From positions 62,001 through 126,000 of IMG/VR virus record IMGVR_UViG_3300047585_000208: 64,000 nt of DNA, one strand, 5' to 3'. Source of the DNA: a virus. Shown piece after piece: positions 3,282 through 53,153 of the stretch (positions are counted from its first letter, which is position 1; every line of letters starts with the position of its first letter). The notes beneath the pieces were generated by a model. The model did no database searches. It worked only from the letters and a program-made list of their open reading frames with translations, and was not told where the DNA came from. The translations under genes and the position numbers were made by a program.

Positions 3282-3369
3282 CATTCCGCTAGGGCTGCTA
3301 GGGCTACATAAAGATGGCTCGCCTTACTGCGACCTTGCTTCATTACAGCGTTGGTATGGAGTTGAGAAT

Positions 3370-3696
3370 TTGCCTTTGATCGTGTTACTGGTACTTTTGA
3401 CTGGTTGGGGTTATCGAGTCGGTGGGCACTTTACACTTGGGTTACTGGACAGACCGGCAAAATGTCACGATTTCGACGAATGGACGAATGATTTAATCTT
3501 ATGCACTTGGCCGATCTGGCTAATAGCTACGGTAGTTCTTATAGCGTGCGCAAGTGTCGTTGTTGTAATAAAAACTACATTTAAAGGTGTAAAAGCTTTA
3601 ACTAAGCTTATTTATGGCAACAAAGACCCTGAAAGATCGGTCGCACGAAGAGTTGGGTACTGGCTTGGTAATCAAGTAGATCAAATGATAGGTTAA
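3370..3696 (+). CDS. Small membrane protein (WP family)
   Basis: 108 residues from TTG, with GGAG 8 bases upstream. Hydrophobic segment at the N terminus, polar loop (about residues 25-45), then TWPIWLIATVVLIACASVVVV and a tail ending RVGYWLGNQVDQMIG. Closest in plan to the genes at 1506 and 27508. It ends 10 bases before a palindrome and is followed by a strong terminator, so it closes the first transcription unit. Unknown function. Confidence 0.7.
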   Translation: MPLIVLLVLLTGWGYRVGGHFTLGLLDRPAKCHDFDEWTNDLILCTWPIWLIATVVLIACASVVVVIKTTFKGVKALTKLIYGNKDPERSVARRVGYWLGNQVDQMIG

Positions 3697-3785: not shown

Positions 3786-3862
3786 TTCATTTGAAGTTTA
3801 GCTCGCTAAAAGGAACAGAATCGATTCTGAGCGATTCTGGAGCGTTTAAAAGGCATTCTGCT

Positions 3863-4010
3863 ACAGATCGCGGAATGTGTTGGTATAACTTTACTCTTTG
3901 TTAAAGCTAAAACATGCCTCCGGCACAGCTCGCGAAGTGTTTCTGTTGTGGTTTGTTTTGATGTAAATCTTTTAATCTCAACGATTTACATTTACAGCTC
4001 GCGATATGTT
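3863..4010. repeat. Three direct repeats, consensus ACAG[CA]TCGCG[AG]A
   Basis: Copies begin at 3863, 3925 and 3994 (spacing 62 and 69 bases). The shared core is ACAG-[CA]-TCGCG-[AG] followed by an A/T/G-rich TGT. The spacing is roughly six helical turns, as expected for binding sites of one protein. Confidence 0.55.
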
Positions 4011-4057
4011 CTTTTGTTTGTTTTTCATTTTTTCTTTTTATTTTATCTTTTCAGTTT

Positions 4058-4107
4058 GCCTATGCTCAACCCCTCGGCCGTAGGCCGGAGAGGGGTTGAG
4101 CATAGGC
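4058..4107. repeat. 18-bp perfect inverted repeat with a second stem in its loop
   Basis: Arms 4058-4075 and 4090-4107 are exactly complementary. The 14-base loop itself contains GGCC-GTA-GGCC. No T-run follows on the + strand, but a T-rich tract precedes it, so on the minus strand the following A-rich RNA is not a terminator signal either. Cruciform or protein-binding site possible. Confidence 0.75.
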
Positions 4108-4194
4108 GAAACTGTCTTATACTCCTACGTTAGTAGGAGTAGACGATATATACCCCCCTTTGTCCTCTTACCTCTCTACCTGAGGAGTAAGCTC

Positions 4195-5061
4195 GTGTTT
4201 TCATCTGACATTAACTGGAGATTCAAATCTTTCCAGTCAAGAGAAGCTTTGACTATTCTGCGATCTGCGGTCTTTGCCCCTATTTTAGGAAAAGCAAAGA
4301 GTCTGTCACCAGAACAAGCTATGTGTAGAATTTTGACTCAGTGGCGAGAAACTGCAAAAGCTCTCGCAGTCTCTAATTGGCTTGCCCCCGAGAGTTTACC
4401 TATCTACAGGAACTGCAAGCCGTTTTTGGTAAACGTCCATGGCAAGTCTAAGACCTTGCCTTGTCAGTACTACCAAGTTTGCCCGTGGTGCTTTGCGAGA
4501 TCGTGTGCACGGCCCGCTACCGCTTTCCTTAGAGCCTTCTCTAAAGATGAAGGCCTTTTCTCTGCGCTTGAAGTAGAACGTATACCCGTCGCGAACTACC
4601 CACCTGCTGAGCTTAAGAAGTTCCTAGCTCACAAAAAACAAATCATGGTTGAAAGTCATGCAGCCAATAACCAATGTCGGCGCGGTTCTGTCTACACAAT
4701 CACAGCTGAGCCAGCTCTAAGGGAAGGGGTTTGGCATTGGAAGATAAGGTCTTACTTGCTAATGATAGTTAATCCAGCGATTCGCGATCTGCATACTTGG
4801 AGTAATTGGAGTTGGACTTTAATGCCTTTTCCTAGTCAGGAGGAGCTCTATCACTGTTTGTCGTCTGTGTTTAGATATCCTCGGATGCTACTGCTCAGTG
4901 AAAAGCCTGAGTTAGTAGCAGAAGCGTTAGCTGCGCGCGAGGGTTTACGTTTGCGAGAAGTTACTGGGCGCGTTCGCGCAGTACACGACAAGCTAAAGGT
5001 CAAACATGAACAAAAAGGAGCAACCGGTGTTACAAGAATTGGTACTGAAGCACTACTCTGA
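4195..5061 (+). CDS. Protein with Rep-like Cys motif, possible replication initiator
   Basis: 288 residues from GTG at 4195, which has GAGGAG 9 bases upstream; an upstream in-frame TTG lies inside the large hairpin and is discounted. Around residues 95-110 there is CQYYQVCPWCFARSCAR, which recalls the C-x5-C-P-x-C-x-[WF]-x-R motif of rolling-circle plasmid initiators of the Rep_1 type. I cannot find the HUH metal motif nor a convincing catalytic tyrosine, so the protein may be a diverged or unrelated zinc-binding protein. Its position directly after a repeat-rich region supports a role in replication or regulation, as inference only. Confidence 0.55.
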   Translation: MFSSDINWRFKSFQSREALTILRSAVFAPILGKAKSLSPEQAMCRILTQWRETAKALAVSNWLAPESLPIYRNCKPFLVNVHGKSKTLPCQYYQVCPWCFARSCARPATAFLRAFSKDEGLFSALEVERIPVANYPPAELKKFLAHKKQIMVESHAANNQCRRGSVYTITAEPALREGVWHWKIRSYLLMIVNPAIRDLHTWSNWSWTLMPFPSQEELYHCLSSVFRYPRMLLLSEKPELVAEALAAREGLRLREVTGRVRAVHDKLKVKHEQKGATGVTRIGTEALL

Positions 5062-5362
5062 TCCTTCTGCGACCAAAGCGTACTGCGAGTGGCCGTTTGT
5101 TTACTTGATTGGTTTGGCGCAGCACCACAACCGCGAGATTGCTGAAAACAACGGCTGGGAGTGGCGTGAACCTGACATGTTTGTTGTTGACATGCCTATG
5201 CCGGCTAAAGCTGGTAACTGGGCAGCTCGATTGTACGGGATGAAGATCTCGATCTTTCTTCGCGAGAATAACGGTCGGATTGAGGGTAGAGCTGCTGCGC
5301 CTTCTGATTCGAATGCCTTTGAGTCTGGGCAGGAGGTTGAGAAATGGAAAGAAGTGAGGTAA
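5006..5362 (+). CDS. Hypothetical protein
   Basis: 118 residues, not recognised. It starts inside the 3' end of the previous gene (AAAGG 6 bases before ATG) and overlaps the next start, suggesting translational coupling. Tryptophan-rich middle (YCEWPFVYLIGLAQHHN, NNGWEWREPD) with no membrane segment. Confidence 0.6.
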   Translation: MNKKEQPVLQELVLKHYSDPSATKAYCEWPFVYLIGLAQHHNREIAENNGWEWREPDMFVVDMPMPAKAGNWAARLYGMKISIFLRENNGRIEGRAAAPSDSNAFESGQEVEKWKEVR

Positions 5363-5628
5363 TTAACGCTGTCCAACTATTGAGCGGCGAGATTATTGGT
5401 TTTGGTTGTAGCTCTACTGGAACTAATTGTCCATATCGTCTTGTAGGGTTATTGACAGGTATAGGCTGCGCCTCAGGAGGCCCAGATTACGAGGCTGGGC
5501 AGTGGGACGGGACTGGTGAAGGTTCTGGATCTTCTCTTGGGTGTCTGGCTTTTGTTGAGCCCACTGCTGGGTATGGGAGGGGCTGGGGAACGCCCGCTGG
5601 GGATGGACTTTGTACAGGAACTAGTTGA
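5344..5628 (+). CDS. Glycine-rich mini-protein A
   Basis: 94 residues; AGGAGG precedes the ATG. First of 14 proteins in the window built from short blocks in which every second residue is glycine, here DGTGEGSGSSLG and GYGRGWGTPAGDG, separated by non-glycine stretches. The family also favours Asp, Ser, Asn, Tyr and Cys and has almost no Lys/Arg in the blocks. The N-terminal 40 residues are more ordinary than in its relatives. No known function; alternating Gly can form flat sheets or polyglycine-II helices. Confidence 0.75.
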   Translation: MERSEVINAVQLLSGEIIGFGCSSTGTNCPYRLVGLLTGIGCASGGPDYEAGQWDGTGEGSGSSLGCLAFVEPTAGYGRGWGTPAGDGLCTGTS

Positions 5629-5642
5629 GTAATGCATTACTC
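5627..5642. repeat. Dispersed palindrome, copy 3
   Basis: GAGTAATGCATTACTC, a perfect 16-bp palindrome extending to 18 with the T/A pair. The TGA stop of protein A lies in its left flank. Confidence 0.95.
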
Positions 5643-5656
5643 AGAAAGGCGTTACT

Positions 5657-5941
5657 GTGACAAAAACAATTTACCGCCAAAACTGTACCTCTTTGGGTGA
5701 CGGAGTTGGCGACTTTGAGGACCATATGTCTGCCAGTACTGACGGATGCGGCGGACCTGACTGTCTTGCCGGGCAGCAGCATGGCGTTGGCTTCGCTAGG
5801 GGTGACGCTTCTGGCTTTGGGGAGACTACCATTAGGGGCAGCGTTTTTGGCCTTGGGCAGTTTAATGGAAAGTCATTTGGCGAAGCCAAAGGTTGGGGCG
5901 TGGGTCGTGGAGCTGTTAACGGCACAGGCCACGACGAGTAA
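5657..5941 (+). CDS. Glycine-rich mini-protein B
   Basis: 94 residues from GTG, preceded by AAAGG. Begins MTKTIYRQNCTSLGDGVGDFED, the same layout as protein G at 19418 (short polar start, RQ-[GN]-C, then Gly block and an acidic cluster). Later blocks: GVGFARG, FGLGQFNG, GWGVGRG. Stop codon TAA comes from palindrome copy 4. Confidence 0.75.
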   Translation: MTKTIYRQNCTSLGDGVGDFEDHMSASTDGCGGPDCLAGQQHGVGFARGDASGFGETTIRGSVFGLGQFNGKSFGEAKGWGVGRGAVNGTGHDE

Positions 5942-5951
5942 GCCGTTACTC
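5936..5951. repeat. Dispersed palindrome, copy 4
   Basis: GAGTAAGCCGTTACTC, loop GCCG. Contains the TAA stop of protein B and is followed by AAGAAAGG. Confidence 0.9.
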
Positions 5952-5965
5952 AAGAAAGGAAATTT

Positions 5966-6214
5966 ATGCTCGCTATCGAGAAGGCAGCTGGAACTGAGCT
6001 TGGAGATGGTGGTGGAATATACGAAAGCAGTATGGCGAGAGTTTTTGGTAATAGCTATGAAGATTGGCCAGCAGGGTTCAAGGATGGTAGCGGTATAGGT
6101 ATTGTGATTGAACCAATCGGTTCTTACGTTGACGAGGCTGTTGGTTATAACCCCGGGGTTGCCACATGCGCTGGAGCACGCGATGGAACCGGAGCTGACT
6201 ATGGAGCTGCCTAA
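5966..6214 (+). CDS. Glycine-rich mini-protein C
   Basis: 82 residues. Gly blocks LGDGGG near the N terminus and KDGSGIGIV in the middle; fewer glycines than most relatives, with a run GYNPGVATCAGARDGTG at the end. Followed after 2 bases by the gene for protein D, the two lying as a tandem pair with no palindrome between them. Confidence 0.7.
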   Translation: MLAIEKAAGTELGDGGGIYESSMARVFGNSYEDWPAGFKDGSGIGIVIEPIGSYVDEAVGYNPGVATCAGARDGTGADYGAA

Positions 6215-6216
6215 CT

Positions 6217-6450
6217 ATGCAAAGCTATAAAACTCGTGCTGGAACAGGGGGAGGCGACGGCGGCGGGTCATTTGAGAATTCAGTTTCTTTGGGCAATGGC
6301 ACCAGTTTCTACGACTGGGGTTCAGGAGATTTAGGTGGTTGTAGTGCGTTTATTGACGACGTTAATACGGTTTCTTGTAGCGGTAAGGGTTACGGTGTTT
6401 TAAATGGCGTTGGTAATGCTATCGGGGAGGGTTATTGCTATGCTGACTGA
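6217..6450 (+). CDS. Glycine-rich mini-protein D
   Basis: 77 residues, smallest of the family. Begins with TGGGDGGGSFENS, closely parallel to LGDGGGIYESS of protein C, which points to local duplication. Aromatic FYDW motif also shared (SFYDWGSGD here, SYEDWPAGF in C). No clear SD; probably coupled to the gene before. Confidence 0.7.
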   Translation: MQSYKTRAGTGGGDGGGSFENSVSLGNGTSFYDWGSGDLGGCSAFIDDVNTVSCSGKGYGVLNGVGNAIGEGYCYAD

Positions 6451-6697
6451 CTCAGCCGACGGATCTGGTAGGGAATTTGTCGAGCTTTTCGGTTTCTATG
6501 ACGCAGACGGCTGTGTTGGCTTTTTTGACGTTGGCGCTGGTTATCGTAGTAACACTGGAGGAGGCTATAGTAGCGAGGGCGACCAGCTTGGAATCGGCTT
6601 TGGCCAAGGTTGTTCTGCTGGTAGTGGAACCGCTTTAGGGTGTGGTGACTACTCTTTAAGTATAGGAAAAACACATGTACGCAGCAGACTTAATTAA
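6440..6697 (+). CDS. Glycine-rich mini-protein E
   Basis: 85 residues from ATG at 6440 with GGGGAGGG 8 bases upstream. The gene overlaps the end of protein D by 11 bases and the start of the next gene by 23. Gly blocks VGAGYRSNTGGG and LGIGFGQGCSAGSG. The basic C-terminal tail (KTHVRSRLN) lies in the overlap and differs in character from the rest. Confidence 0.65.
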   Translation: MLTDSADGSGREFVELFGFYDADGCVGFFDVGAGYRSNTGGGYSSEGDQLGIGFGQGCSAGSGTALGCGDYSLSIGKTHVRSRLN

Positions 6698-7319
6698 AAC
6701 CTGCGCTAAGGCTAATAATCTCCCCCCGGAGATTCAAATCATTTTGATTACTGAGTTTCTGGTTGACAAATTGCCAGGAGTTCAAGGTGAGGTTGTCTCG
6801 GAAAAACTTCGAGAGATACTTGAAGCAGTTGGGGTAGTCCCAGACGTTGTTATTGATGTTATTGGTGCTCTGCTTGATCGTTATGCCGCAACTAAGGATT
6901 TGCCGAAATATCTCAAGGACTTTTTGGCTGGCTGGGCAACGGCAGTTATTCCAGAGCCAACTAACGCGACTATTATTTGTGAGGTGACTGCTGAAGAAGC
7001 AAAGCGAATTGACAAGGCTTTTAGCGACGTGGCTTGGCCAATTGGTGTTCGAATGCCTGTCGGTAGTGTGCGGGATACCGAGGTACCGGATTGGCTGAGT
7101 TGCGTATTAATCACGTTAATTGGCAATTCTGCAGGTGCACCAGTCATCGATATTAGTTTGTGGATTGATGATAAATGCGTAGCTTCTGGGCCTCCTTGTT
7201 ATTCGCTTGATGAACCAATTCGAGTAACGTATAGGAGTGTTTGCGTTGAAATTAAATTTGTGAGATTGCCAGAGGTTCAGAGTGGCGCGCCCAAAGAAGC
7301 AACCCAAGGGTCAACCTAG
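6675..7319 (+). CDS. Hypothetical protein
   Basis: 214 residues, not recognised. The N-terminal half is predicted helical and acidic (residues 15-90, LPPEIQIILITEFLVDKL and following); the C-terminal half is beta-like (VIDISLWIDDKCVASG, RVTYRSVCVEIKFV). No signal peptide or membrane segment. It follows the glycine-rich cluster without a gap. Confidence 0.65.
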   Translation: MYAADLIKTCAKANNLPPEIQIILITEFLVDKLPGVQGEVVSEKLREILEAVGVVPDVVIDVIGALLDRYAATKDLPKYLKDFLAGWATAVIPEPTNATIICEVTAEEAKRIDKAFSDVAWPIGVRMPVGSVRDTEVPDWLSCVLITLIGNSAGAPVIDISLWIDDKCVASGPPCYSLDEPIRVTYRSVCVEIKFVRLPEVQSGAPKEATQGST

Positions 7320-7494
7320 ACCCGGACGAGAAGTCAAGTGTTTAGGCCTTAACTGCGGAAAAATGTTTTGGTCTGAGGACCCTTGTCGAATAAGAATTTG
7401 TCCTGTGTGCCGGAAAAAGCCTGGCCGTAATGATGTGCCGAGGATAAGGCTTTTCAAAACAGACAATCTTGGAGGGTTTCATCCTCCGGAGTGA
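7282..7494 (+). CDS. Small zinc-ribbon protein
   Basis: 70 residues from GTG, AGAGG upstream, starting within the end of the previous gene. A very basic first 20 residues (MARPKKQPKGQPRPGREVK) precede four cysteines in the order C-x4-C ... C-x4-C-x2-C, followed by another basic stretch. Zinc binding and nucleic-acid contact are likely; no specific role can be given. Confidence 0.6.
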   Translation: MARPKKQPKGQPRPGREVKCLGLNCGKMFWSEDPCRIRICPVCRKKPGRNDVPRIRLFKTDNLGGFHPPE

Positions 7495-7500
7495 AAAGTT

Positions 7501-7516
7501 AAGTAACGCATTACTC
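7501..7516. repeat. Dispersed palindrome, copy 5
   Basis: AAGTAACGCATTACTC, first base changed from G to A, followed by AAAAGGAGG, the SD of the gene at 7530. Confidence 0.9.
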
Positions 7517-7529
7517 AAAAGGAGGAAGC

Positions 7530-7874
7530 ATGTTCAATCACGCAATTGCTTGCGCTGTTGAATCACTTGTTTCTGCCGGTTTTATTGATAAGCAGAAGTC
7601 TTCAGAAGCCGAAGCGCACATGCGCGAGTTTTGGAAAAATAAGCTTGTCGATATCTGGTCTGTGGAGGATGTTCAATCTGTTAGACCAGATCTTGATGAA
7701 AAGCAAGCGGTCATGGTGCTTGAACACCTAGATCGCAACTTTGATAGCGAGATTGGAATTAACTGGCAGCGAATTGAACAAGCTGCTATTTACGTCTTTG
7801 GCCCTCTTGAGTTGGATTCCTGTCGCCTCACTTCTTTGTTAGCAGAGGAGCTTGTTGATGGCCGTGCCGATTAG
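7530..7874 (+). CDS. Hypothetical protein upstream of SbcD
   Basis: 114 residues, acidic and helical, not recognised. It directly follows a palindrome cassette with SD AAAAGGAGG and overlaps the start of the sbcD-like gene, so the two are probably translated together. Confidence 0.65.
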   Translation: MFNHAIACAVESLVSAGFIDKQKSSEAEAHMREFWKNKLVDIWSVEDVQSVRPDLDEKQAVMVLEHLDRNFDSEIGINWQRIEQAAIYVFGPLELDSCRLTSLLAEELVDGRAD

Positions 7875-8952
7875 CGCTATCACCGCCGACGACCATCTTG
7901 ATACACATACCTGGGCTAAACATCCTGATCTAGCTGGCGACAGCTACTTTGCTTTCAGCCAAAAAATTGATTACTGTCTTGCCCGTGATCTTTCTCTAAT
8001 CCAAGCCGGGGATCTCTTTAATCGCCGATTTCCTGATCCGGCCTCTGTGTACTTCTTTAATCAGCAGATGCACAGAATGAAACGCGGAGACATCGGTGTT
8101 TATGCCATTCAGGGTAACCACGAGGTCTTTCGTACCAGCCCGTGGCTGAGCTCTAACGCGAGCGGTTGCCCAGCACACGTTCACAAGAAGGCTTTTCAGA
8201 TCGGCGATATCTGGTTCTACGGCCTTGACTTTCAGCCAGCTGAACAGTTAAAACTTGAACTAGTCGCCCTTAGGCAACTTGAACCAAAGCCTCATGTCCT
8301 TATCGCTCATCAGGTTTGGGAGGAGCCGATGGGGCTTAAAGCTGGTCCTGAAGCTGCTTATCGAGACGTCCCAGTTGTGCAGATGCTTATTACTGGTGAT
8401 TTCCATCGCCATTGTGTTACTCGCTGTGTAGGCGTAGACGAGCAGCCTTTAACCGTTCTTAGCCCCGGGTCGCAGTGTCTGCAGAGTAAAGCTGAGGACC
8501 CAAATAAGTATTTCTTTATCCTCTATAGCGACTTGACAGTTGAATCGGTATTGCTTAAGTCAAGGCCACTTGAGCGATTTAAGTTTCGTAATCCGCTTTC
8601 TTTCGAGGATGAGCTAGCTCAAGCTGTCGCTAAAGCTGTTCCTGGCAACGAGTTACCAGAGCACATTGCAAAGCCTATTTTTGTTGTTGAGTATTCAGAG
8701 CTAATTTCGAACGTTCACGCGCGCTTAAAGGCAGCCTTGGCCGGCAAGGTTCATTTGTTTGAAACGCCCATCGAGTCGAGGGCTGCGAAAGCTGAAGTTA
8801 AGCCGGCTATTGCAAAGTGCGGGGCTGTTGAGCAGCTGGAGCTTTTTAAAGAGGATTTGCCTGTTTACGAAACTTCAAAGAGGCTTCTAACTGCCAAAGA
8901 CCCTCTTAGCGAGTGGCAGGAAATTATTTCTGACGCCTCGAAAGGTTCTTGA
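7858..8952 (+). CDS. sbcD: SbcD/Mre11-like nuclease subunit (T4 gp47-type)
   Basis: 364 residues from ATG at 7858 (GAGGAG upstream). Metallophosphoesterase motifs in order: ADDHLD near the N terminus, AGDLFNRR, QGNHE and ITGDFHRH, i.e. the D-x-H, GD, GNH[DE] and GxH-type motifs of Mre11/SbcD/gp47. With SbcC it forms an ATP-dependent double-strand end and hairpin nuclease used in phage recombination and DNA degradation. The usual partner gene lies 1.9 kb downstream, separated by an RNA ligase and small membrane genes. C-terminal 100 residues are charged and not recognised. Confidence 0.88.
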   Translation: MAVPISAITADDHLDTHTWAKHPDLAGDSYFAFSQKIDYCLARDLSLIQAGDLFNRRFPDPASVYFFNQQMHRMKRGDIGVYAIQGNHEVFRTSPWLSSNASGCPAHVHKKAFQIGDIWFYGLDFQPAEQLKLELVALRQLEPKPHVLIAHQVWEEPMGLKAGPEAAYRDVPVVQMLITGDFHRHCVTRCVGVDEQPLTVLSPGSQCLQSKAEDPNKYFFILYSDLTVESVLLKSRPLERFKFRNPLSFEDELAQAVAKAVPGNELPEHIAKPIFVVEYSELISNVHARLKAALAGKVHLFETPIESRAAKAEVKPAIAKCGAVEQLELFKEDLPVYETSKRLLTAKDPLSEWQEIISDASKGS

Positions 8953-8953
8953 T

Positions 8954-9085
8954 ATGTCAGAGTCGCCCATTTTTCGCCAAATCTGCGTGGACTTGCATAC
9001 CATTGTTTGCCTGGACGCGCTTATTCTTCTTTTTGTCATCCTCGACTTTGCTCACGGGGTTTGGATAAAAAGATTTCAAAAATAA
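8954..9085 (+). CDS. 43-residue single-span membrane protein
   Basis: ATG directly after the sbcD stop (1 base gap). One hydrophobic segment (about residues 14-33, TIVCLDALILLFVILDF) and a basic tail WIKRFQK. No SD apart from GG in TCTTGAT, so it probably depends on coupling to sbcD. Confidence 0.5.
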   Translation: MSESPIFRQICVDLHTIVCLDALILLFVILDFAHGVWIKRFQK

Positions 9086-9109
9086 TTCCAAAAAGGGGCT
9101 TGCCGATCT

Positions 9110-9268
9110 ATGCTCGATTCCATAGTATTAGGCGGAATAGTGATTGGTTGTGGTTTAGGCTTGTGTGCCCTTGCTGTTGGTTTCTTTGAGCTGTTGGATT
9201 GGTCGATGGGAGAGGATGATACCGACGATGACGATCACCATCAAGGTGGCCCAGTTCTAGCTGCGTAA
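9110..9268 (+). CDS. 52-residue membrane protein with Asp/His tail
   Basis: SD AAGGGG upstream. A glycine-rich membrane segment (IVLGGIVIGCGLGLCALAVG) followed by a tail with the run EDDTDDDDHH, which could bind metal. Stop codon TAA is inside palindrome copy 6. Confidence 0.6.
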   Translation: MLDSIVLGGIVIGCGLGLCALAVGFFELLDWSMGEDDTDDDDHHQGGPVLAA

Positions 9269-9278
9269 TACGTTACTC
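9263..9278. repeat. Dispersed palindrome, copy 6
   Basis: GCGTAATACGTTACTC, one mismatch at the second base; carries the TAA stop of the gene at 9110. No SD follows for 60 bases. Confidence 0.8.
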
Positions 9279-9350
9279 AGCGCCTAGAGTCGAGGGCTAA
9301 ATCGACTAGACAGCGAGAAGCTGTTTTACGCCCGCCTATGGATTACGGCG

Positions 9351-10502
9351 ATGAGTAGCCTAATAGTCGAAGTCTGCGAAGTAGCTGATGTCGTCGATCA
9401 TCCTAATGCCGATCGAATGGCTGTAGCTAAGATTCGTGGTTGGGACGTTTGTGTAGCTAAGAATTCGGATGGCACGCCTTGGTGTAAGAAGGGGCAGAAG
9501 GTCGTCTTTTTCCCGCCTGACTCCGTTATTCCTCAAGCAGTTAGCGATAAGCACGGTGTTACAAAGTATCTGTCAAAAGGTCGTGTTCGCGTTGCAAATC
9601 TTCGTGGATTCAAGAGTTACGGCTATCTTGCTGATCTAGACGATCCGAGTTGGCCAGTTGGTAAAGACGTCGCTGAGCATTACGGTGTTACTAAGTACGA
9701 TCCGCCGATGCGGACTACCCAAGGAGACGCGGCTAAACCTCATCCGCTTTTCCACACCTATTACGACATGGAGAACATTAGAAACTTCCCAGATGTTTTC
9801 CAAGAAGGTGAAGAAGTTTATGTGACCGAGAAGATCCACGGAGAGAATTGCCGTTTAGGCCTTATTCGCGATACGAACGATAAAGGTGAAGCTGTTTGGA
9901 AGTGGATGGCCGGCACGCACGCGGTCCGGCGTAAACGTTTTTATCAAAAGCGCGATCGAGAGACTTTTGAGTTTGTCGGGCCGGCGCTCACGAGCTCGTG
10001 CTGGCAGTGTTTTAATCCTGAAATAATGCGAATGTTGCTCGATGTTAGCAAGTGCGGTTATACGCTTGAAGAATTTAGTAAGTCGGAGTATGCCGATAGA
10101 CCGCCTGCGCCGTCTGGCAATAGCGTTGTGCTCTTTGGAGAGCGATTTGGGATGCAGGATATAAAATACGGCCTCACGGACGGCAAATTCAGTTTCCGCG
10201 CTTTCGATTTGACGATTAACGGTCGGTACGTAGACTTTGAGGAGAAACTTTCTAAGTTCAAAGCTTTCGGTGTACTGCACGTTCCGTTTCTCTGGCAAGG
10301 ACCTTATAGCTTCGAGAAGATTGTCGAATTGACTGAAGGTCCTTCTTTTCTTCATAACGGACAGCCTTTCAAGGAAGGTGTTGTTGTAACTGCTGCGGTG
10401 GAGCGGTCAGTTGTTACGTCACGGAAGGTCATGAGTCGCGCTCAGCTCAAGTGTATTAGCTTCGCTTACCTGAGTCGGAAAGATGGAACTGAGGGTCACT
10501 AA
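9351..10502 (+). CDS. RNA ligase, DraRnl (DRB0094/Rnl5) type
   Basis: 383 residues. Nucleotidyltransferase motif I is VTEKIHGEN with the adenylated lysine at K161; further motifs are VVLFGERFGM (III), KEGVVVT (IV) and AQLKCIS (V). A 130-residue N-terminal domain (OB-like in the Deinococcus enzyme) precedes the ligase core, as in the DRB0094 family. Such ligases seal nicks in duplexes with an RNA 3'-OH. In phages RNA ligases commonly repair tRNAs cleaved by host defence nucleases; that role is inference. Compare the Thg1-like gene at 39038. SD is poor (GGCG), unusual here. Confidence 0.88.
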   Translation: MSSLIVEVCEVADVVDHPNADRMAVAKIRGWDVCVAKNSDGTPWCKKGQKVVFFPPDSVIPQAVSDKHGVTKYLSKGRVRVANLRGFKSYGYLADLDDPSWPVGKDVAEHYGVTKYDPPMRTTQGDAAKPHPLFHTYYDMENIRNFPDVFQEGEEVYVTEKIHGENCRLGLIRDTNDKGEAVWKWMAGTHAVRRKRFYQKRDRETFEFVGPALTSSCWQCFNPEIMRMLLDVSKCGYTLEEFSKSEYADRPPAPSGNSVVLFGERFGMQDIKYGLTDGKFSFRAFDLTINGRYVDFEEKLSKFKAFGVLHVPFLWQGPYSFEKIVELTEGPSFLHNGQPFKEGVVVTAAVERSVVTSRKVMSRAQLKCISFAYLSRKDGTEGH

Positions 10503-10511
10503 GGAGGATCA

Positions 10512-10637
10512 ATGCTGGATTACTTATTTGAAACCTTTGTTTGGCTTCTAGTTTGCGGATCAGTTTTTACGATTATCTTTGTTGTCGCAGAAACCTTCTA
10601 TCACGACTACGAAGATGATGATGACTTTTTTGAGTAA
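10512..10637 (+). CDS. 41-residue membrane protein with acidic tail
   Basis: AAGGAGG 6 bases before ATG. One membrane segment (about 6-26) and the acidic tail HDYEDDDDFFE, similar in plan to the gene at 9110. TAA stop is supplied by palindrome copy 7. Confidence 0.6.
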   Translation: MLDYLFETFVWLLVCGSVFTIIFVVAETFYHDYEDDDDFFE

Positions 10638-10647
10638 TGCGTTACTC
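10632..10647. repeat. Dispersed palindrome, copy 7
   Basis: GAGTAATGCGTTACTC, loop TGCG. Contains the stop of the preceding small gene; AAGGAGG for the next gene starts 8 bases later. Confidence 0.95.
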
Positions 10648-10664
10648 AGTTTTAAGGAGGATGG

Positions 10665-10772
10665 ATGGCGCTTTATCAGTTCATTGGGCTTATGTCGCTT
10701 GTTGTGGTTGTCTTTGGAATCGGGATTCTCGGGATCCTGGTTGAGGACGACGCACCTTTTAAGGAGAACTAA
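10665..10772 (+). CDS. 35-residue membrane protein
   Basis: AAGGAGG ahead of ATG (an alternative in-frame-shifted ATG lies 4 bases earlier). A hydrophobic segment MSLVVVVFGIGILGILV is followed by EDDAPFKEN. The stop region provides the AAGGAG used by the next gene. Confidence 0.55.
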   Translation: MALYQFIGLMSLVVVVFGIGILGILVEDDAPFKEN

Positions 10773-10773
10773 C

Positions 10774-10875
10774 GTGGCAGAGATTCTCGTAGGTTTTCTA
10801 TCGCTCGGGTTTTTGCTGCTCGTGTTGGTCGCTGCGGGCTACGGGACGATCATTGAGGCAGATGAGTTGCACTAA
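10774..10875 (+). CDS. 33-residue membrane protein
   Basis: GTG start 6 bases after AAGGAG. Almost entirely one membrane segment (ILVGFLSLGFLLLVLVAAGY) with a short acidic end. Its stop overlaps the sbcC start (TAATG). Third of three tiny membrane proteins in a row between the ligase and sbcC; with such length the call rests on the SDs and spacing. Confidence 0.5.
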   Translation: MAEILVGFLSLGFLLLVLVAAGYGTIIEADELH

Positions 10876-12998
10876 TGCGTTTATTAAAAGCAAAGTTTGT
10901 CAACTATTGCCGTCACCGGGATTTGGAGATCAACTTCAATCCCGGTTTGACGGCTATTGTCGGACCTAACGGTTCCGGTAAATCGACCATTCTTAATGGT
11001 CTAGTCTGGTGCCTCACTGGCGTAGACCGTAACGTTGGAAAGAAGGATGATAACATCAGTCTTGCTGCACTCGATCGTGAGCCGGCTGGGGTTACGGTTT
11101 GGTTTGAGCACGCTGGTGTTACTGCGGAGATGTACCGTGGACTTTATCCTTCGAAGCAGCATCTGCGCTTTGGCGATACTCTCCTAAATAAAGACAAGGA
11201 GATTCGCGTAAAGCTTCAAGAGATCCTTGGGGCTAGCGAAGACGTTCTACTCAATTACGTCTTTGTTGAGCAGCTCAAGATGTTCGCATTCATCGGTCAA
11301 AGCGATACCCAGGTCGCTCAGGCGATGGGACAGCTCTTTGGCACAGATAAAGCAGAGCGTATCTACGAGATGCTGGGAAAGCAGCAAGTTACTATTCCCC
11401 TGTCTGCCGTTGACGGAGATCAGCTCGCGATCAAGACTCAAGAAGCTGAGCAGCTGCTAGCTGAAGTCGATAGCGACCTTTTGCAGTATCAGGACATCCA
11501 AGACGGCTGGACAGAGACCCGGTCACCGCACTACACTAAGCTTCAAACTTTCAAAGAGCGACAACGCCTTTGGGAGGACTTCAATAAAACGACAGCGCAA
11601 ATAGCGGCCCCAAACGCTAAATTGGCTGAACTTCAGCCGGAGCTTTTACGTAGAAAAGCTGAATTAGAGGAGTTGAGTAATGCATTACTCAGCAGAAAGC
11701 CAGCTGTTGCCAAAGCTAAAGCCGACCAGACTGAGTGGATCCGCTATAATGCCGCGATTGGCTATCAGGCACTCAATAAAAAGAGAGAACTTGAACAGCA
11801 AGCGATCCTTAGCTCGCTGGTTGAGCCGTATAAGCCTCCAGAGTGTACACAGTTTGCTGAGGTTGACCGGACTGTAATGCTTGGTAGACAAGACGAGCTT
11901 AAACGCCGCAGACAGCTTGTTGCTGCCTGGAAAAATGGTGGCTCTGGCAAATGCCACGCCTGCGGAACTTCAGCTACTGTTATCCGAGCTAGGCTCCCAG
12001 AAGAGGAAGAAGAAATAATTGTACTTTCTGCGAGAGTTGCCCTTGACAATCAACTCTGGGATTCATATAAAGGCTATAACCAGCAACTTGAGCTTTACAA
12101 GAGGCAAAAAGACGCAGCTACTCGATCGCTCGCCGATATCCGAAAACAGCTTAATGAGATAGCTCTTCCGCCAAAGCCAGCGCAAGGCGAAGCTGAAATT
12201 AATTCGTTTCTGGAAGAACAGCAGACGTATGAGAGTGGGTTCGTGGCGCTTGAGCAGGTGTATAACCAGCTTTCAAGAACTTGTGCTGAGCTTGAAGGGC
12301 AGATCAATCAGTTGAACGCACTAGAGCAAGCTTTGGCTGACAAGATCTTTGCTATTCCTTTGATTAAGCCAGAAGAAGCGGTTGAAGCAGAGCTAAAGCT
12401 CGAAGAAGGCCGTAAGCGGGTAGAGGTAAAGCGAAACCTCCTCGCAAGGCAGCGCCTCTTGATTGAGCAGCTTAAACACGATAAGATTTCCGCTGAAAAG
12501 TACCAAGAGTACAAAAAGAAAGTTCATCGGCTTGAGGCGTTAGAGCAACACAGGGTGAAAGTCCGGGAGATTTTTCATCGAGACAACTTGCAGAAGAGAG
12601 TAGTTGAGAGTTATTTGGAGCTTCTTAAAGAAGAGATTAATCAGCATCAAGAAAGTTTTGATGCGACTTGTCGAGTCCTTGGATTCGAAGATTGGCGGTT
12701 TATTGTTAAGAAGCTTCCGGGAGGAGAGGTTCATTCAGCGTCGAGACTTTCAAAGGGTGAGCAAGCTTTATTTGCGCTAGCTTATCGAATTGTAATTAAC
12801 TCGACTTTTGCAAAGGATCTTGGCCTCCTCTGTTTAGATGAACCGACAGTGGCTTTGGACGCGGATAATAGAAGGTGTCTGGAGACTGCGCTCATAAAAC
12901 TTAGAGAACTAAGTGAGTCGCGAGGTCTTCAGGTGCTCTTGGTTACGCATGACACTGATATTGGTTCATTTGATACCGTAATCCGGCTGGAGGCCTGA
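10875..12998 (+). CDS. sbcC: SbcC/Rad50-like ATPase (T4 gp46-type)
   Basis: 707 residues. Walker A GPNGSGKS at 30-37, a long charged coiled-coil arm broken by a CHAC zinc-hook at 360-363, ABC signature SKGEQALFAL at about 626 and Walker B LLCLDEPTVALD at about 655, i.e. the Rad50/SbcC/gp46 plan. It drives the SbcD nuclease at 7858. Remarkably a perfect copy of the dispersed palindrome lies inside the coding sequence (11675-11690) and is translated as LSNALLS in the first arm of the coiled coil. Confidence 0.92.
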   Translation: MRLLKAKFVNYCRHRDLEINFNPGLTAIVGPNGSGKSTILNGLVWCLTGVDRNVGKKDDNISLAALDREPAGVTVWFEHAGVTAEMYRGLYPSKQHLRFGDTLLNKDKEIRVKLQEILGASEDVLLNYVFVEQLKMFAFIGQSDTQVAQAMGQLFGTDKAERIYEMLGKQQVTIPLSAVDGDQLAIKTQEAEQLLAEVDSDLLQYQDIQDGWTETRSPHYTKLQTFKERQRLWEDFNKTTAQIAAPNAKLAELQPELLRRKAELEELSNALLSRKPAVAKAKADQTEWIRYNAAIGYQALNKKRELEQQAILSSLVEPYKPPECTQFAEVDRTVMLGRQDELKRRRQLVAAWKNGGSGKCHACGTSATVIRARLPEEEEEIIVLSARVALDNQLWDSYKGYNQQLELYKRQKDAATRSLADIRKQLNEIALPPKPAQGEAEINSFLEEQQTYESGFVALEQVYNQLSRTCAELEGQINQLNALEQALADKIFAIPLIKPEEAVEAELKLEEGRKRVEVKRNLLARQRLLIEQLKHDKISAEKYQEYKKKVHRLEALEQHRVKVREIFHRDNLQKRVVESYLELLKEEINQHQESFDATCRVLGFEDWRFIVKKLPGGEVHSASRLSKGEQALFALAYRIVINSTFAKDLGLLCLDEPTVALDADNRRCLETALIKLRELSESRGLQVLLVTHDTDIGSFDTVIRLEA
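11675..11690. repeat. Dispersed palindrome, copy 8, inside sbcC
   Basis: GAGTAATGCATTACTC within an open reading frame, encoding residues 267-273 of the SbcC-like protein. The only copy in the interior of a recognised gene. Confidence 0.95.
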
Positions 12999-31758: not shown

Positions 31759-31862
31759 TGACACACGATGGCTTCACAACTGGACAAGCGTCAAAGTATA
31801 TCAAAAGGCACCCTAAGACCTTGCAGACGCTTGATCGTGCCGGCAGATTGCCGGCCAAGTGA
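31758..31862 (+). pseudogene. Truncated MerR-type HTH, remnant of an IS607-like TnpA
   Basis: 34 codons then stop. GFTTGQASKYIKRHPKTL followed by RAGRLPAK is the N-terminal MerR/excisionase-type helix-turn-helix seen in serine transposases of IS607, cut off just where the family would continue. Placed directly ahead of tnpB, as in IS607. It could also be a phage HTH gene broken by the insertion. Confidence 0.55.
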
Positions 31863-33142
31863 GCTTCGACTTGCTTGATCTTGAACAGCAACGAAAATGT
31901 TTTCATTACACGAAGCTTCAACCGTTATGGGCGGCTGATAATCATCGCAAGGGAAAACGCGCTCAAAGAAGTATTAAAGACGTGAACCTGACACACAAGA
32001 TATCCCTGGACGCCACGTTCAAGCAACGGCATTATTTTGCCCGCGCTGCTGGTACGTCCAGGTTTGTTTACAACCACGCTTTAGCCGAATGGAATCGTCA
32101 ATACTCGGCCGGAGGCAGGCCAACTGCTAACGCCTTGAAGCTGCAATTCAATGCGACGTACAAGGAACTATGGCCCTGGATTGAGGATGTTCACCGCGAT
32201 TGCCATTCCCAACCTTTTGCAGATCTTGGCAAAGCGTTCGGCAATTTTTTCAAGGGCCTGGCCAAACGGCCAGTGTTCAAGAAACGCGGTAAAAGCAGGG
32301 CGTCATTTTACGTCGCCAATGACAAGTTTAGCGTGCGTGGCAACACGGTGAGGTTGCCAGTGATCGGCAAAGTGAAGATGCGAGAAGCGTTGCGGTTCAC
32401 CGGCAAGATCAATTCGGCCCGCGTGGTTGAAGAGTGCGGCCAGTGGTTCATTTGTATTTCTGTGGACGTTGGTGAGTTCAGTAAGCCACGCACTGGAGAC
32501 AGCGTTGTGGGCGTGGACGTTGGCGTTAAAGTGTTGGCCACGCTCGACACGGGCGAACAGATTGAGAATCCCCGTCCGCTCAAGAAGGCTCAGAAAAGAT
32601 TACGCCGAGCAAACCGAAAGCTTGCCCGTCGCGTGAAGGGGTCGGCCAACAGGAATAAACAGCGGCAGGTTGTGGCCCGCATCCACCGCCGCATTCGTAA
32701 TATCCGTCACGATGTTCTGCACAAATTCACGTCGCGGCTGGCCAAAAACCACGGCACAGTCGTGATCGAAGACCTCAACGTCAAAGGAATGGTGAAAAAC
32801 CATTGTTTGGCGCAAGCGATCAGCGATGCTGGGTTTGGCATGTTCCGTCAATTTCTCGGCTACAAGGTCGTGATACACGGAACGCGGATTGTCGTGGCGG
32901 ATAGGTTTTATCCCAGTTCGAAGATGTGTTCGCGCTGCGGAAGAGTCAAGTCTGAGCTTTCACTCAGCGAGCGAGTGTTCATTTGCGAATGCGGTAACGT
33001 TATTGACCGCGACTGGAACGCCGCTTTGAACCTGAAACAACTAGGGGCGGCTAGCCCCGAAGTAACGCCTGTGGAGTCGTCATGGGGCGACAGTGAAGCA
33101 GGAACTACACCGCGAGCAGACTCACGTTTGCTCACAAGGTAG
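31859..33142 (+). CDS. tnpB: TnpB RNA-guided endonuclease, second copy
   Basis: 427 residues in the full frame. The recognisable protein begins near 31982 (NLTHKISLDATFKQRHYFARA); the first 40 residues match nothing I know and the start is uncertain because no SD is present. RuvC motifs: VVGVDVGVKVLATL, VVIEDLNVKGM, and IDRDWNAALNL, with zinc site CSRCG ... CECG between. All catalytic acids are kept. Clearly different in sequence from the TnpB at 1910, so the phage acquired it independently. Confidence 0.85.
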   Translation: MSFDLLDLEQQRKCFHYTKLQPLWAADNHRKGKRAQRSIKDVNLTHKISLDATFKQRHYFARAAGTSRFVYNHALAEWNRQYSAGGRPTANALKLQFNATYKELWPWIEDVHRDCHSQPFADLGKAFGNFFKGLAKRPVFKKRGKSRASFYVANDKFSVRGNTVRLPVIGKVKMREALRFTGKINSARVVEECGQWFICISVDVGEFSKPRTGDSVVGVDVGVKVLATLDTGEQIENPRPLKKAQKRLRRANRKLARRVKGSANRNKQRQVVARIHRRIRNIRHDVLHKFTSRLAKNHGTVVIEDLNVKGMVKNHCLAQAISDAGFGMFRQFLGYKVVIHGTRIVVADRFYPSSKMCSRCGRVKSELSLSERVFICECGNVIDRDWNAALNLKQLGAASPEVTPVESSWGDSEAGTTPRADSRLLTR

Positions 33143-46552: not shown

Positions 46553-46578
46553 GCCGCCTGCCCAGGGCGGCTTTTCTT
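46553..46578 (+). terminator. Rho-independent terminator
   Basis: GCCGCC/GGCGGC with a 7-base loop, then TTTTCTTGTTTT, 12 bases after the stop. Confidence 0.75.
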
Positions 46579-46583
46579 GTTTT

Positions 46584-46599
46584 GAGTAATGCATTACTC
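46584..46599. repeat. Dispersed palindrome, copy 25
   Basis: GAGTAATGCATTACTC directly downstream of a terminator; the SD (AAAAGGAG) of the next gene lies 31 bases further. Confidence 0.95.
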
Positions 46600-46644
46600 A
46601 AAAGATTGATTTTCTGAAGCAGCTCTCTAAAAGGAGTTTGAATC

Positions 46645-47355
46645 ATGCTGACAGCCGGATTTGGGCCATCGATTGGCATTTGGGTTTTGATCGGTTTGGC
46701 GCTGTGGTTTTTGGGGGATTTGATAAAGCTGCTTGTTCGAGTAAAAAACGATGTAGCTGCCCCAGTTGATGATGACTTCCTGAATAACCGAACGATCGAT
46801 ATTGAAGTGAACTTCTGCTATCAGTACACGATTACACAGGCGTTTCCACTTCATACGACAGTTAGAACGGCGCTAAAGAAAACAATTAACGAAGAGGATG
46901 TTAGCCCGTTAGATTGCCCGGATTTATTTCGGATATCGGTGCGCTCTCATTCTGGTGGGTTGATTTTGCCGTGGAAGAGCCCACGTGAGGCGATACTTGA
47001 TTTAAAACTGAAGAACAAAGACTATATTAAAGTCGAGAATGTTAAGCCAGCACCGAGTAGTAAACATCCAGAAGAAATTAAAGTCTGGTTGATCAGCGCC
47101 CAAGCCGGTAGCAAAACTCATTCAGTCAATATGCCGGCTAGATCTACTGTTTATGATTTGATTATTCGGCAGGTCTACCTAGATCCTGTGCTTACGCAGT
47201 GCAATCCTATTAATGAGCCGGAGGAGTTTAGAATTCAGTTGTACAGGGTCGACTCAATGGGGATTCGCATGGGGCCTTCCGATATTTGTCTCGCTACTAT
47301 TCTTCAAGCCGACGACCAGGTCTATCTTCTCTCGTCAAAGCTTCTAGGCGGCTAG
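46645..47355 (+). CDS. Membrane-anchored tandem ubiquitin-like protein ending in LLGG
   Basis: 236 residues, AAAAGGAG upstream. One N-terminal membrane segment (about 8-30), a linker, then two segments with the strand-strand-helix-strand order of the beta-grasp ubiquitin fold: residues 50-132 (TIDIEVNFCYQYTITQAFPL ...) and 143-236 (IKVWLISAQAGSKTHSVNMP ... STVYDLI ... EFRIQLYRVDSMG ... ADDQVYLLSSKLLGG). The last strand and the terminal LLGG match the end of ubiquitin (LRGG). In ubiquitin-like modifiers the free C-terminal GG is the conjugated end. Two tandem domains are the layout of ISG15 and of bacterial BilA. No E1, E2 or deubiquitinase gene is visible in the window. The fold is my reading of the pattern, not a database match. 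Confidence 0.5.
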   Translation: MLTAGFGPSIGIWVLIGLALWFLGDLIKLLVRVKNDVAAPVDDDFLNNRTIDIEVNFCYQYTITQAFPLHTTVRTALKKTINEEDVSPLDCPDLFRISVRSHSGGLILPWKSPREAILDLKLKNKDYIKVENVKPAPSSKHPEEIKVWLISAQAGSKTHSVNMPARSTVYDLIIRQVYLDPVLTQCNPINEPEEFRIQLYRVDSMGIRMGPSDICLATILQADDQVYLLSSKLLGG

Positions 47356-47357
47356 GC

Positions 47358-47386
47358 TTGCCTAGCCGATTAGTTTCTGCTATACT
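47358..47386 (+). promoter_or_regulatory. Candidate promoter inside a hairpin
   Basis: TTGCCT at 47358, 17-base spacer, TATACT at 47381. The spacer and -10 box form the left arm and loop edge of the hairpin at 47364-47409. It would serve the gene at 47425. Confidence 0.45.
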
Positions 47387-47409
47387 GCCTTAGCAGAAAC
47401 TAATCGGCT
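47364..47409 (+). terminator. 19-bp hairpin, terminator or operator
   Basis: Arms 47364-47382 and 47391-47409 perfectly complementary, loop 8 bases, followed by TTCT only. Stable enough to stop or protect transcripts; also a palindromic site overlapping a promoter. Confidence 0.6.
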
Positions 47410-48683: not shown

Positions 48684-48705
48684 AACTTTCTATTTGGAGC
48701 TAGTT

Positions 48706-51386: not shown

Positions 51387-51431
51387 CTGTTCTTGCCTCG
51401 GCAGAGGCCTTCCGCCGTAAAAGGAGTCATC

Positions 51432-53153
51432 GTGACTACAGCGTGTATCGCGCCGTCTACTGCAGCTTTCAAAAAGCCTCGCAGTAATCGCCAGTCGAAC
51501 TCATCAGTCATCTGGTCATATTCTGCGAGTAAGCCTCTTACGAATTTGGACGTTATCGAGGATCAGTTCCATCGTGGGTATCAGCTTCGGCGTAATCTTG
51601 TCAGGCTTGAAAATGACCGCAGGAAAAAGCAGCAAGAACTCAGGCAGAAGACTTATCCAAGGCTCATTGAGCTTGAAGAAGCTTTGATCCCGATTGAGAA
51701 AGAAATTCTCGCGATTGAAGGCGGCATTAAGGTTGCACAGAACTCTGAAACGCTTATTAAGTTGAAGGCCGCGCGAAAGCCGTTTCTGGATGAGAAGAGT
51801 AAGCTTGAGGTTGACCTTAGCCTTAATCTGGTATTTCAAGGGGCAGCCGGGATTATCGACAATGCATCAGACGTTTTGAAGAATAACGCTTGTTCTGAAA
51901 GCGGGCTCTACCCAGCAAACATTCAGCAAGTTATCCAGACGGTTAAAAGGACAGGGCTAGCTCCGATCATTGAGCCCGAGTACACCGGTGAAGGAAAAAT
52001 TGCAGTTTATCTACCAGAGGGGCTGTCTCCGGCAGCTTTGTTTGCCGGGCAAAATCGGCTTATCCGGGTAGACCCTGTACCAGCTACCGCCTATGGGCCA
52101 AGACAACCCCACGAGATTGTTGGGCCGACTATTCCGAATCCACGCCGAACGAAAGCTTTCCTGCGAGTCGGGAGAACTGACGCGGAGGCTGTTTGGGCTG
52201 AAATTCCAGTTTTGCTGCATAGACCGTTCCCAGAGGATTGTGCTATTCGGCAGGTTTGGCTGAGTCGGAAAAAGAGCGGGTATAAGTCTGAGTGGAAATT
52301 GCAGTTCACTTGTTGGCACAATCTTACCCGGAAGCGGGCAGATAAAGGTGTTGTTGGGATTGATTTAGGGTGGCGTAAACTCCCGACTGGGCTTCGAGTT
52401 GCTTATTGGGCTGGAGACGACGGTCAGGCTGGCGAGATTGTTATTCCGAATGCACGAATTCATCAGCTTGATCTTGCAGACAACATCGATAGCGAGCGGA
52501 TTGAGATTTGCGCTGAAGAGACTTTGAATCTCAAAAACTGGATTAGCAACCATGCCGTTCCTAATTGGTTGACTGTAGATAGTGTTCCTGAGACGCTCAA
52601 AGGGCTTTTTGATATGGTGTCTGCTTGGATGAGTAATCGATTTGCAGGTGACGAAGCAATTTTCGATCAGCTTATGGCTTGGCGTAAGGAAGAGATGAAA
52701 CTCGCTAATTGGGCAGCTAATCAAAGGAAGAACTTCCAAAATTGGCGCAAGCAGTTTTTCCTGGATCACGTTAGCGATTCAAGAGCGGTTGGTGCCTTTG
52801 CAAAGCTTGCGCAGCGATACCGAACTGCGGTTGTTGAAGATAATCGGCATACACCCCCAAGGCTGAAGGTTCAAGATCGGGGCTTCTCAGAGAAAGAGCG
52901 TGTACAATATCGAAATATTGCTGGTGTGGGGTTGTTTAGCGATATTCTTCGGGACCGCTTGATTGTTAAAGCTGTCCAGGTTCAAAATGCTGCGGTTATG
53001 TGCCATGAGTGCCACCGCATCTGCAAGTGGGAGCAGGTTGAGCTGAAGCATAAGTGTGAGCATCCGGGCTGTCGGGCTGAGTGGGATCAAGATTACAACA
53101 CGAGTAGGAATTTGCTTGCAATCGGTCTTGAAGAGGAAGATAGGGCTGAGTAA
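51432..53153 (+). CDS. Cas12/TnpB-superfamily RuvC nuclease, 573 residues
   Basis: GTG at 51432 follows AAAAGGAG by 5 bases. Residues 50-145 form a charged coiled coil; 190-300 are a beta-rich domain; then RuvC-I GVVGIDLGWRKL (D311), RuvC-II TAVVEDNRHTPP (E469), a zinc ribbon CHECHR ... CEHPGC, and RuvC-III WDQDYNTSRNLL (D554 or D552). All catalytic acids are present. The 158 residues between D311 and E469 and the total length exceed TnpB (350-430) and match small Cas12 effectors. No CRISPR array, no insertion-sequence ends and no transposase are visible. Stop TGA/TAA region is in a palindrome. Confidence 0.7.
   Translation: MTTACIAPSTAAFKKPRSNRQSNSSVIWSYSASKPLTNLDVIEDQFHRGYQLRRNLVRLENDRRKKQQELRQKTYPRLIELEEALIPIEKEILAIEGGIKVAQNSETLIKLKAARKPFLDEKSKLEVDLSLNLVFQGAAGIIDNASDVLKNNACSESGLYPANIQQVIQTVKRTGLAPIIEPEYTGEGKIAVYLPEGLSPAALFAGQNRLIRVDPVPATAYGPRQPHEIVGPTIPNPRRTKAFLRVGRTDAEAVWAEIPVLLHRPFPEDCAIRQVWLSRKKSGYKSEWKLQFTCWHNLTRKRADKGVVGIDLGWRKLPTGLRVAYWAGDDGQAGEIVIPNARIHQLDLADNIDSERIEICAEETLNLKNWISNHAVPNWLTVDSVPETLKGLFDMVSAWMSNRFAGDEAIFDQLMAWRKEEMKLANWAANQRKNFQNWRKQFFLDHVSDSRAVGAFAKLAQRYRTAVVEDNRHTPPRLKVQDRGFSEKERVQYRNIAGVGLFSDILRDRLIVKAVQVQNAAVMCHECHRICKWEQVELKHKCEHPGCRAEWDQDYNTSRNLLAIGLEEEDRAE

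Follow-up and report, generated by a model that had tools for sequence, protein, structure and literature searches.

Conjugation of ubiquitin-like (Ubl) proteins in bacteria serves as a defence against phages, as in the Bil and type II CBASS systems. Beta-grasp domains also occur together with membrane parts in EccD, a protein with many transmembrane (TM) helices that is not known to have a diglycine end. Among the components of Bil, BilA is composed of two Ubl domains, BilB carries a CEHH motif and BilD contains two adenylation domains (PMC11354881). In Caldiarchaeum subterraneum, a single operon encodes ubiquitin, E1, E2, a small RING protein and Rpn11, and the JAMM protease cuts pro-ubiquitin (PMC5654768). 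Prokaryotic clusters of Ubl, E1, E2 and JAB genes are described in parts of Iyer et al. 2006 from bacterial genomes, many of them located on plasmids or in ICE-like elements; for phages, the same parts of that paper describe Ubl and JAB proteins encoded among tail assembly genes (TAPI/TAPK), without E1 or E2 (PMC1779556). There, 12 TM helices are given for EccD.

The genome studied here, a 137,890-bp IMG/VR virus record, is that of a contractile-tailed phage, as indicated by genes for a baseplate J protein, a DNA polymerase, a primase and DnaB-like and UvsX-like proteins. Enzymes to attach ubiquitin-like tags and to remove them are encoded as well, in a nearly complete set, suggesting protein tagging by the virus itself. 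The window, a stretch of 64,000 nucleotides corresponding to positions 62001-126000 of the record, contains a gene whose product is plausibly a second, membrane-tethered modifier of the phage's own conjugation system. A palindromic repeat is spread over the genome from position 331 to position 135451, which argues against a chimeric contig. This 18-mer (TGAGTAAYGCATTACTCA) has 61 strand-wise matches in the window, for 0 expected (sites at 1475, 5626, 11674, 31499, 46583 and 60341, among others), and about 50 sites genome-wide. Many copies lie immediately 5′ of the Shine-Dalgarno sequence of a gene, and the repeat is possibly an operator, part of a promoter or a processing hairpin. The window also encodes a standard TnpB (31859-33142) and a protein of 586 aa whose C-terminal zinc finger is Cas12/TnpB-like (51393-53153; Pfam E 0.05), near which no CRISPR array was found. 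At locus L006 (9645-11354), a 569-aa protein matches the phage RNA-binding protein family phrog_850 (E 9e-76). Locus L004 (13587-14897) encodes a tandem series of four similar small proteins of 95-116 aa; for three of the four, the palindromic repeat, as a copy or a remnant, lies immediately 5′ of the gene. Two further proteins resembling them are encoded at locus L002 (935-1267 and 1494-1811).

The window gene (46645..47355, + strand) starts with ATG, follows the Shine-Dalgarno sequence AAAGGAG (46630..46636, +) and encodes a protein of 236 amino acids ending in ADDQVYLLSSKLLGG, with a TAG stop immediately after. Upstream of it are a terminator-like hairpin predicted 3′ of the preceding gene (46553..46571, +) and one of the palindromic repeats that recur throughout the genome (TGAGTAATGCATTACTCA; 46583..46600). 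A perfect 19-bp hairpin, either a terminator or a regulatory element, lies directly 3′ (47364..47409, +; −36.6 kcal/mol, z −7.9). The gene is flanked by two hairpins and therefore probably forms its own transcription unit. The two neighbouring genes, encoding proteins of 570 aa (upstream) and 357 aa (downstream), are orphans in which no domains were found. The only strongly hydrophobic stretch of the window protein (residues ~9-31; 46669..46737, +; Kyte-Doolittle 2.05) corresponds by hydropathy to an N-terminal TM helix. It is followed by the positively charged residues RVK, so that, by the positive-inside rule, the rest of the protein is probably cytoplasmic. Behind the helix, the protein is made up of two similar segments of ~95 amino acids, segment 1 (residues 46-136; 46780..47052, +) and segment 2 (residues 140-236; 47062..47352, +). 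The window protein has no significant family match in Pfam, NCBIfam, PHROGs or PADLOC, and no homologs were detected by IMG/VR patterns, by tblastn in INPHARED, in eight cassette-bearing IMG/VR contigs or by an ORF-by-ORF HMM scan of three phages with a related cassette.

The earlier note had described the gene product as a TM helix followed by two beta-grasp-like segments and a terminal LLGG. For segment 2 this fold is supported by the AlphaFold2 (AF2) prediction obtained from an alignment of two rows, segment 2 and segment 1 (pLDDT 82, pTM 0.77; pLDDT 75-82 over the five models), in which strands and helix follow the beta-grasp order b-b-a-b-b-b. Foldseek searches with this model, in both the PDB and BFVD, are headed by ubiquitin-like folds: MoaD (6jbz, E 5.8e-4) ranks first in the PDB, ahead of linear di-ubiquitin, SUMO-like domains and the Caldiarchaeum ubiquitin, and the best viral matches in BFVD are ubiquitin-like proteins of giant viruses. 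The PDB matches also include the EccD-containing ESX-5 structures 7npt and 7np7. Segment 1 shares 22% identity with segment 2, and their global alignment score exceeds that of 99.5% of shuffles, yet scores as high were obtained for many adjacent block pairs within the other proteins encoded here; hhalign comparisons between single sequences gave no signal. These alignments lend moderate support to a duplication. The anchor, the predicted fold of segment 2 and the LLGG end of the earlier description thus stand, and segment 1 probably shares the beta-grasp fold, judging from its likeness to segment 2.

Adjacent genes for Ubl, E2, JAB (JAMM) and E1 proteins are located at 3.3-11.9 kb of the genome (locus L002), outside the window and 97 kb upstream of the window gene. 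The E1, E2-like and JAB genes that the earlier note had proposed to look for are therefore all present in the same contig, with intact active-site motifs. Two small Ubl-like proteins, u1 (3288-3533) and u2 (3804-4064), were assigned by sequence pattern and position. They are 74% identical; u2 ends in KLEG-AFAA and u1 lacks the tail motif discussed below. Three paralogous E2-like proteins with Cys-rich parts are encoded at 4159-5634, 5677-6651 and 6688-7650, a JAB protein of ~1190 residues with the JAB domain at its start from ~7610 to 11179, and E1 at 10965-11921. The E1 protein shows one ThiF match in its 318 amino acids (Pfam E 4e-20), has E. coli ThiF, UBA6 and UBA5 as PDB matches, and is nearest to the E1-E2 models of PADLOC (3e-10); a CTAK/CSYK loop is conserved in four of the five phage E1s compared. 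The E2-like proteins carry the pattern HPN/HPH...C, and the third of them (HPNINFQGNVCLG) aligns with the catalytic site of each of UBC12 and UBC4 (E 0.1-0.7, always at the active site) and likewise with the active site in homologs encoded by other phages. Their Cys-rich parts, with 9-17 CxxC pairs, have a RING/RBR-like look and no Pfam RING match. The JAB domain contains the complete JAMM motif E...HxHx7SxxD, with a Prok-JAB score under the Pfam cut-off. Beyond this domain, the JAB protein (L002, 7610-11179) has ~1000 further residues with internal repeats. No physical or regulatory link was found between the window protein and this cassette.

This arrangement recalls BilABCD by the tandem Ubl protein with a C-terminal glycine tail and by the co-occurrence of E1, E2 and JAB within one genome. 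It differs from BilABCD in being encoded by a phage, with a Ubl protein that is anchored and located 97 kb from the enzymes, in the single ThiF match of its E1, compared with the two adenylation domains of BilD, and in its HPN/HPH...C-type E2, compared with the CEHH motif of BilB (PMC11354881). PADLOC detected no BilA match in the window protein, whose gene, given this distance, forms no bilABCD operon with the enzyme genes. With no BilA match, E1 and E2 of different types and no operon, the phage system is not Bil, and the parallel with Bil drawn in the earlier note is to be read as an analogy. The operon of C. subterraneum (PMC5654768) likewise brings together Ubl, E1, E2, a Zn-binding part and a JAMM protease, but in the phage the Cys-rich part is fused to E2, the JAB protein has its ~1000-aa extension, and the second Ubl protein is membrane-anchored and would require no processing. 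The clusters described in parts of Iyer et al. 2006 (PMC1779556) contain the same four components and also include tandem Ubl repeats. By analogy, the phage system appears akin to these archaeal and bacterial Ubl-E1-E2-JAB clusters (PMC5654768, PMC1779556). It resembles the Cap2 (E1-E2) and Cap3 (JAB) proteins of type II CBASS in the affinity of its E1 domain to PADLOC E1-E2 models, but its E1 and E2 are separate polypeptides, and no CD-NTase gene was seen beside the cassette. With YukD and EccD, the window protein has in common a beta-grasp fold joined to transmembrane parts, and structures containing EccD are among its fold matches; it differs in having one TM helix and a diglycine end, and genes for type VII secretion were not observed.

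Related cassettes recur in other phages. An E2 active-site pattern searched in IMG/VR led to a 182-kb phage contig (G004) in which E2, JAB and E1 genes follow each other in a row, preceded by a Ubl gene. A second pattern retrieved eight IMG/VR contigs, including G004 (L031 and L035, whose proteins are the same, are both counted); E2 and JAB are encoded in 8/8 and E1 in 7/8 within the stretch examined, the stretch of the remaining contig, G009, being too short and its full record containing E1. In this 191-kb contig, homologs of our phage's proteins were detected for E2, Cys-rich part included (1e-32), for JAB (5e-25) and for E1 (2e-21). The recurrent cassettes, together with the crAss001 genes described next, are found at loci L030-L036 and L012, and also at L015 (2965-6636) and L017 (2196-5686). 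In crAss-like phages, JAB and E1 genes are adjacent and have a putative E2-like neighbour, recognized in a hand-read alignment; in crAss001, the JAB-E1 pair and its E2-like neighbour correspond to gp78-76, annotated as 'thiamine biosynthesis' and 'metalloprotease'. A Ubl/E1/E2/JAB operon is also present in a bacterial MAG (Magnetocorallium). Tailed phages of several lineages, probably with crAss-like phages among them, thus carry E1, E2-like, JAB and Ubl genes themselves. Relatives of our phage identified by DNA polymerase gave no E1 or E2 matches. Around the conserved gene at 48694, synteny with the related phage G004 is absent, the flanks being different, and the core of the palindromic 18-mer was not found in G004. 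On the human-gut phage scaffold MT835544, a reverse transcriptase, identified by eye from the translation, is encoded near E2-JAB-E1 (L017, 652-1989). Our search of the open-access literature yielded no description of an E1-E2-JAB-Ubl system encoded by phages; subscription papers were outside this search, so that priority is uncertain.

In most of these cassettes, a small Ubl gene is located directly 5′ of E2, and most of the small Ubl proteins have the tail motif [K/R/Q/A][V/L/M]xG[G/A]. Besides that of u2, their ends read QVKG-AA.., QVKG-A, RVEGG-E, AVKGG-R, KMAG-A, KMKG-AA and AVKGG-KI; the Ubl candidate of MT835544 is without the motif. For G004, a 91-aa ORF (L012:3606-3881) was initially taken as the Ubl gene and dropped for a better candidate, a 66-aa ORF before E2 (L023:8412-8612). 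Most small cassette Ubls would require trimming, presumably by the JAB protein. The window protein has nothing after KLLGG and hence requires none. Its last predicted strand is followed by the six-residue tail SKLLGG (47335..47352, +), of the same length as in ubiquitin, with the diglycine predicted to be exposed on a flexible end; the likeness to the last strand and tail of ubiquitin proposed from the sequence alone is borne out in this respect. By composition, about 1.1 GG endings and 0.017 LLGG endings are expected per 184 ORFs, and the window protein is the only one of the 184 ending in LLGG. The GG alone is weak evidence, since about one such ending is expected by chance; the evidence is much stronger for a GG that closes a domain predicted to fold like ubiquitin, when E1, E2 and JAB are encoded by the same genome. 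The KLLGG end is in the same register as the cassette motif, which is expected exactly at the C-terminus of ~0.1 in 184 ORFs by chance, a figure to be read knowing that the likeness was spotted after the fact. Among the ties of the window protein to the cassette, this shared motif is the best one. A profile of cassette Ubls, in which the 91-aa ORF of G004 was still a row, as it was in two alignments, reached the window protein by hmmsearch at E 5.8 and rank 11 and does not indicate homology. Segment 2 aligned with u2 alone scores above 99.9% of shuffles, yet ranks third among 289 ORFs of the genome.

We tentatively favour, at somewhat less than even confidence, a protein with an anchor, two cytoplasmic beta-grasp domains and a mature diglycine end that is conjugated by the phage enzymes and tethers its targets to the membrane. 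The distance of 97 kb to the cassette and the lack of homologs speak against such a modifier, and a scaffold acting without conjugation is nearly as likely. As a non-conjugated membrane adaptor, comparable to EccD/YukD of type VII secretion and to the plant MUBs, it would use its beta-grasp domains to hold a partner (a complex of the host, for example, or the E2-like proteins of the phage) at the membrane, and the GG would be accidental. A fusion of YukD to TM helices is mentioned in parts of Iyer et al. 2006 (PMC1779556). Modifiers do not usually have an N-terminal anchor, 7npt and 7np7 are among the Foldseek matches, chance alone would produce about one GG ending and no homolog shows selection on the GG, all of which makes the adaptor a possibility to be taken seriously; what counts against it is a tail of ubiquitin-like length that carries the cassette motif with nothing behind it, in a genome that encodes E1, E2 and JAB.

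The choice between a counter-system, a decoy and a conjugation system of the phage's own had been left open in the earlier note, and the presence of E1, E2-like and JAB genes supports an own system over a lone decoy. A decoy or inhibitor would be a tandem Ubl protein of the BilA/ISG15 type that blocks defence by occupying host enzymes, either E1/E2 (those of Bil, or Cap2 in type II CBASS) or deconjugating ones. The tandem architecture and free GG do recall BilA, and the phage E1 is closest to PADLOC E1-E2 models, but the protein has no sequence similarity to BilA in PADLOC, and a phage with its own enzyme set needs no decoy to explain a Ubl protein; we therefore consider a decoy for host systems less likely and, on the whole, improbable. 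That the protein is an unrelated small membrane protein, with a confident model produced by the two-row alignment and an LLGG due to chance, seems very improbable: only two rows were indeed available and the single-sequence AF2 run of both segments together reached pLDDT 31, but segment 2 was modelled at pLDDT 82 and pTM 0.77, the five models remained at 75-82, and ubiquitin-like folds dominate the matches in two independent libraries.

If the window protein is a modifier, E1 would adenylate its LLGG tail and an E2-like protein would receive it as a thioester. Once joined to a target, it would tie this target to the cell membrane through its N-terminal anchor, and JAB could undo the attachment. 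It is more doubtful that the phage system is complete, with the anchored tandem modifier moving targets to the membrane and the small Ubls and the anchored Ubl serving as alternative tags. We know of no membrane-anchored Ubl modifier; such a protein, if confirmed, would put the ubiquitin fold to a new use. Working enzymes would mean that phages tag proteins in the course of infection, and it would then be of interest which proteins these are, what purpose the tags serve, and whether tagging by phages counters or predates the bacterial systems.
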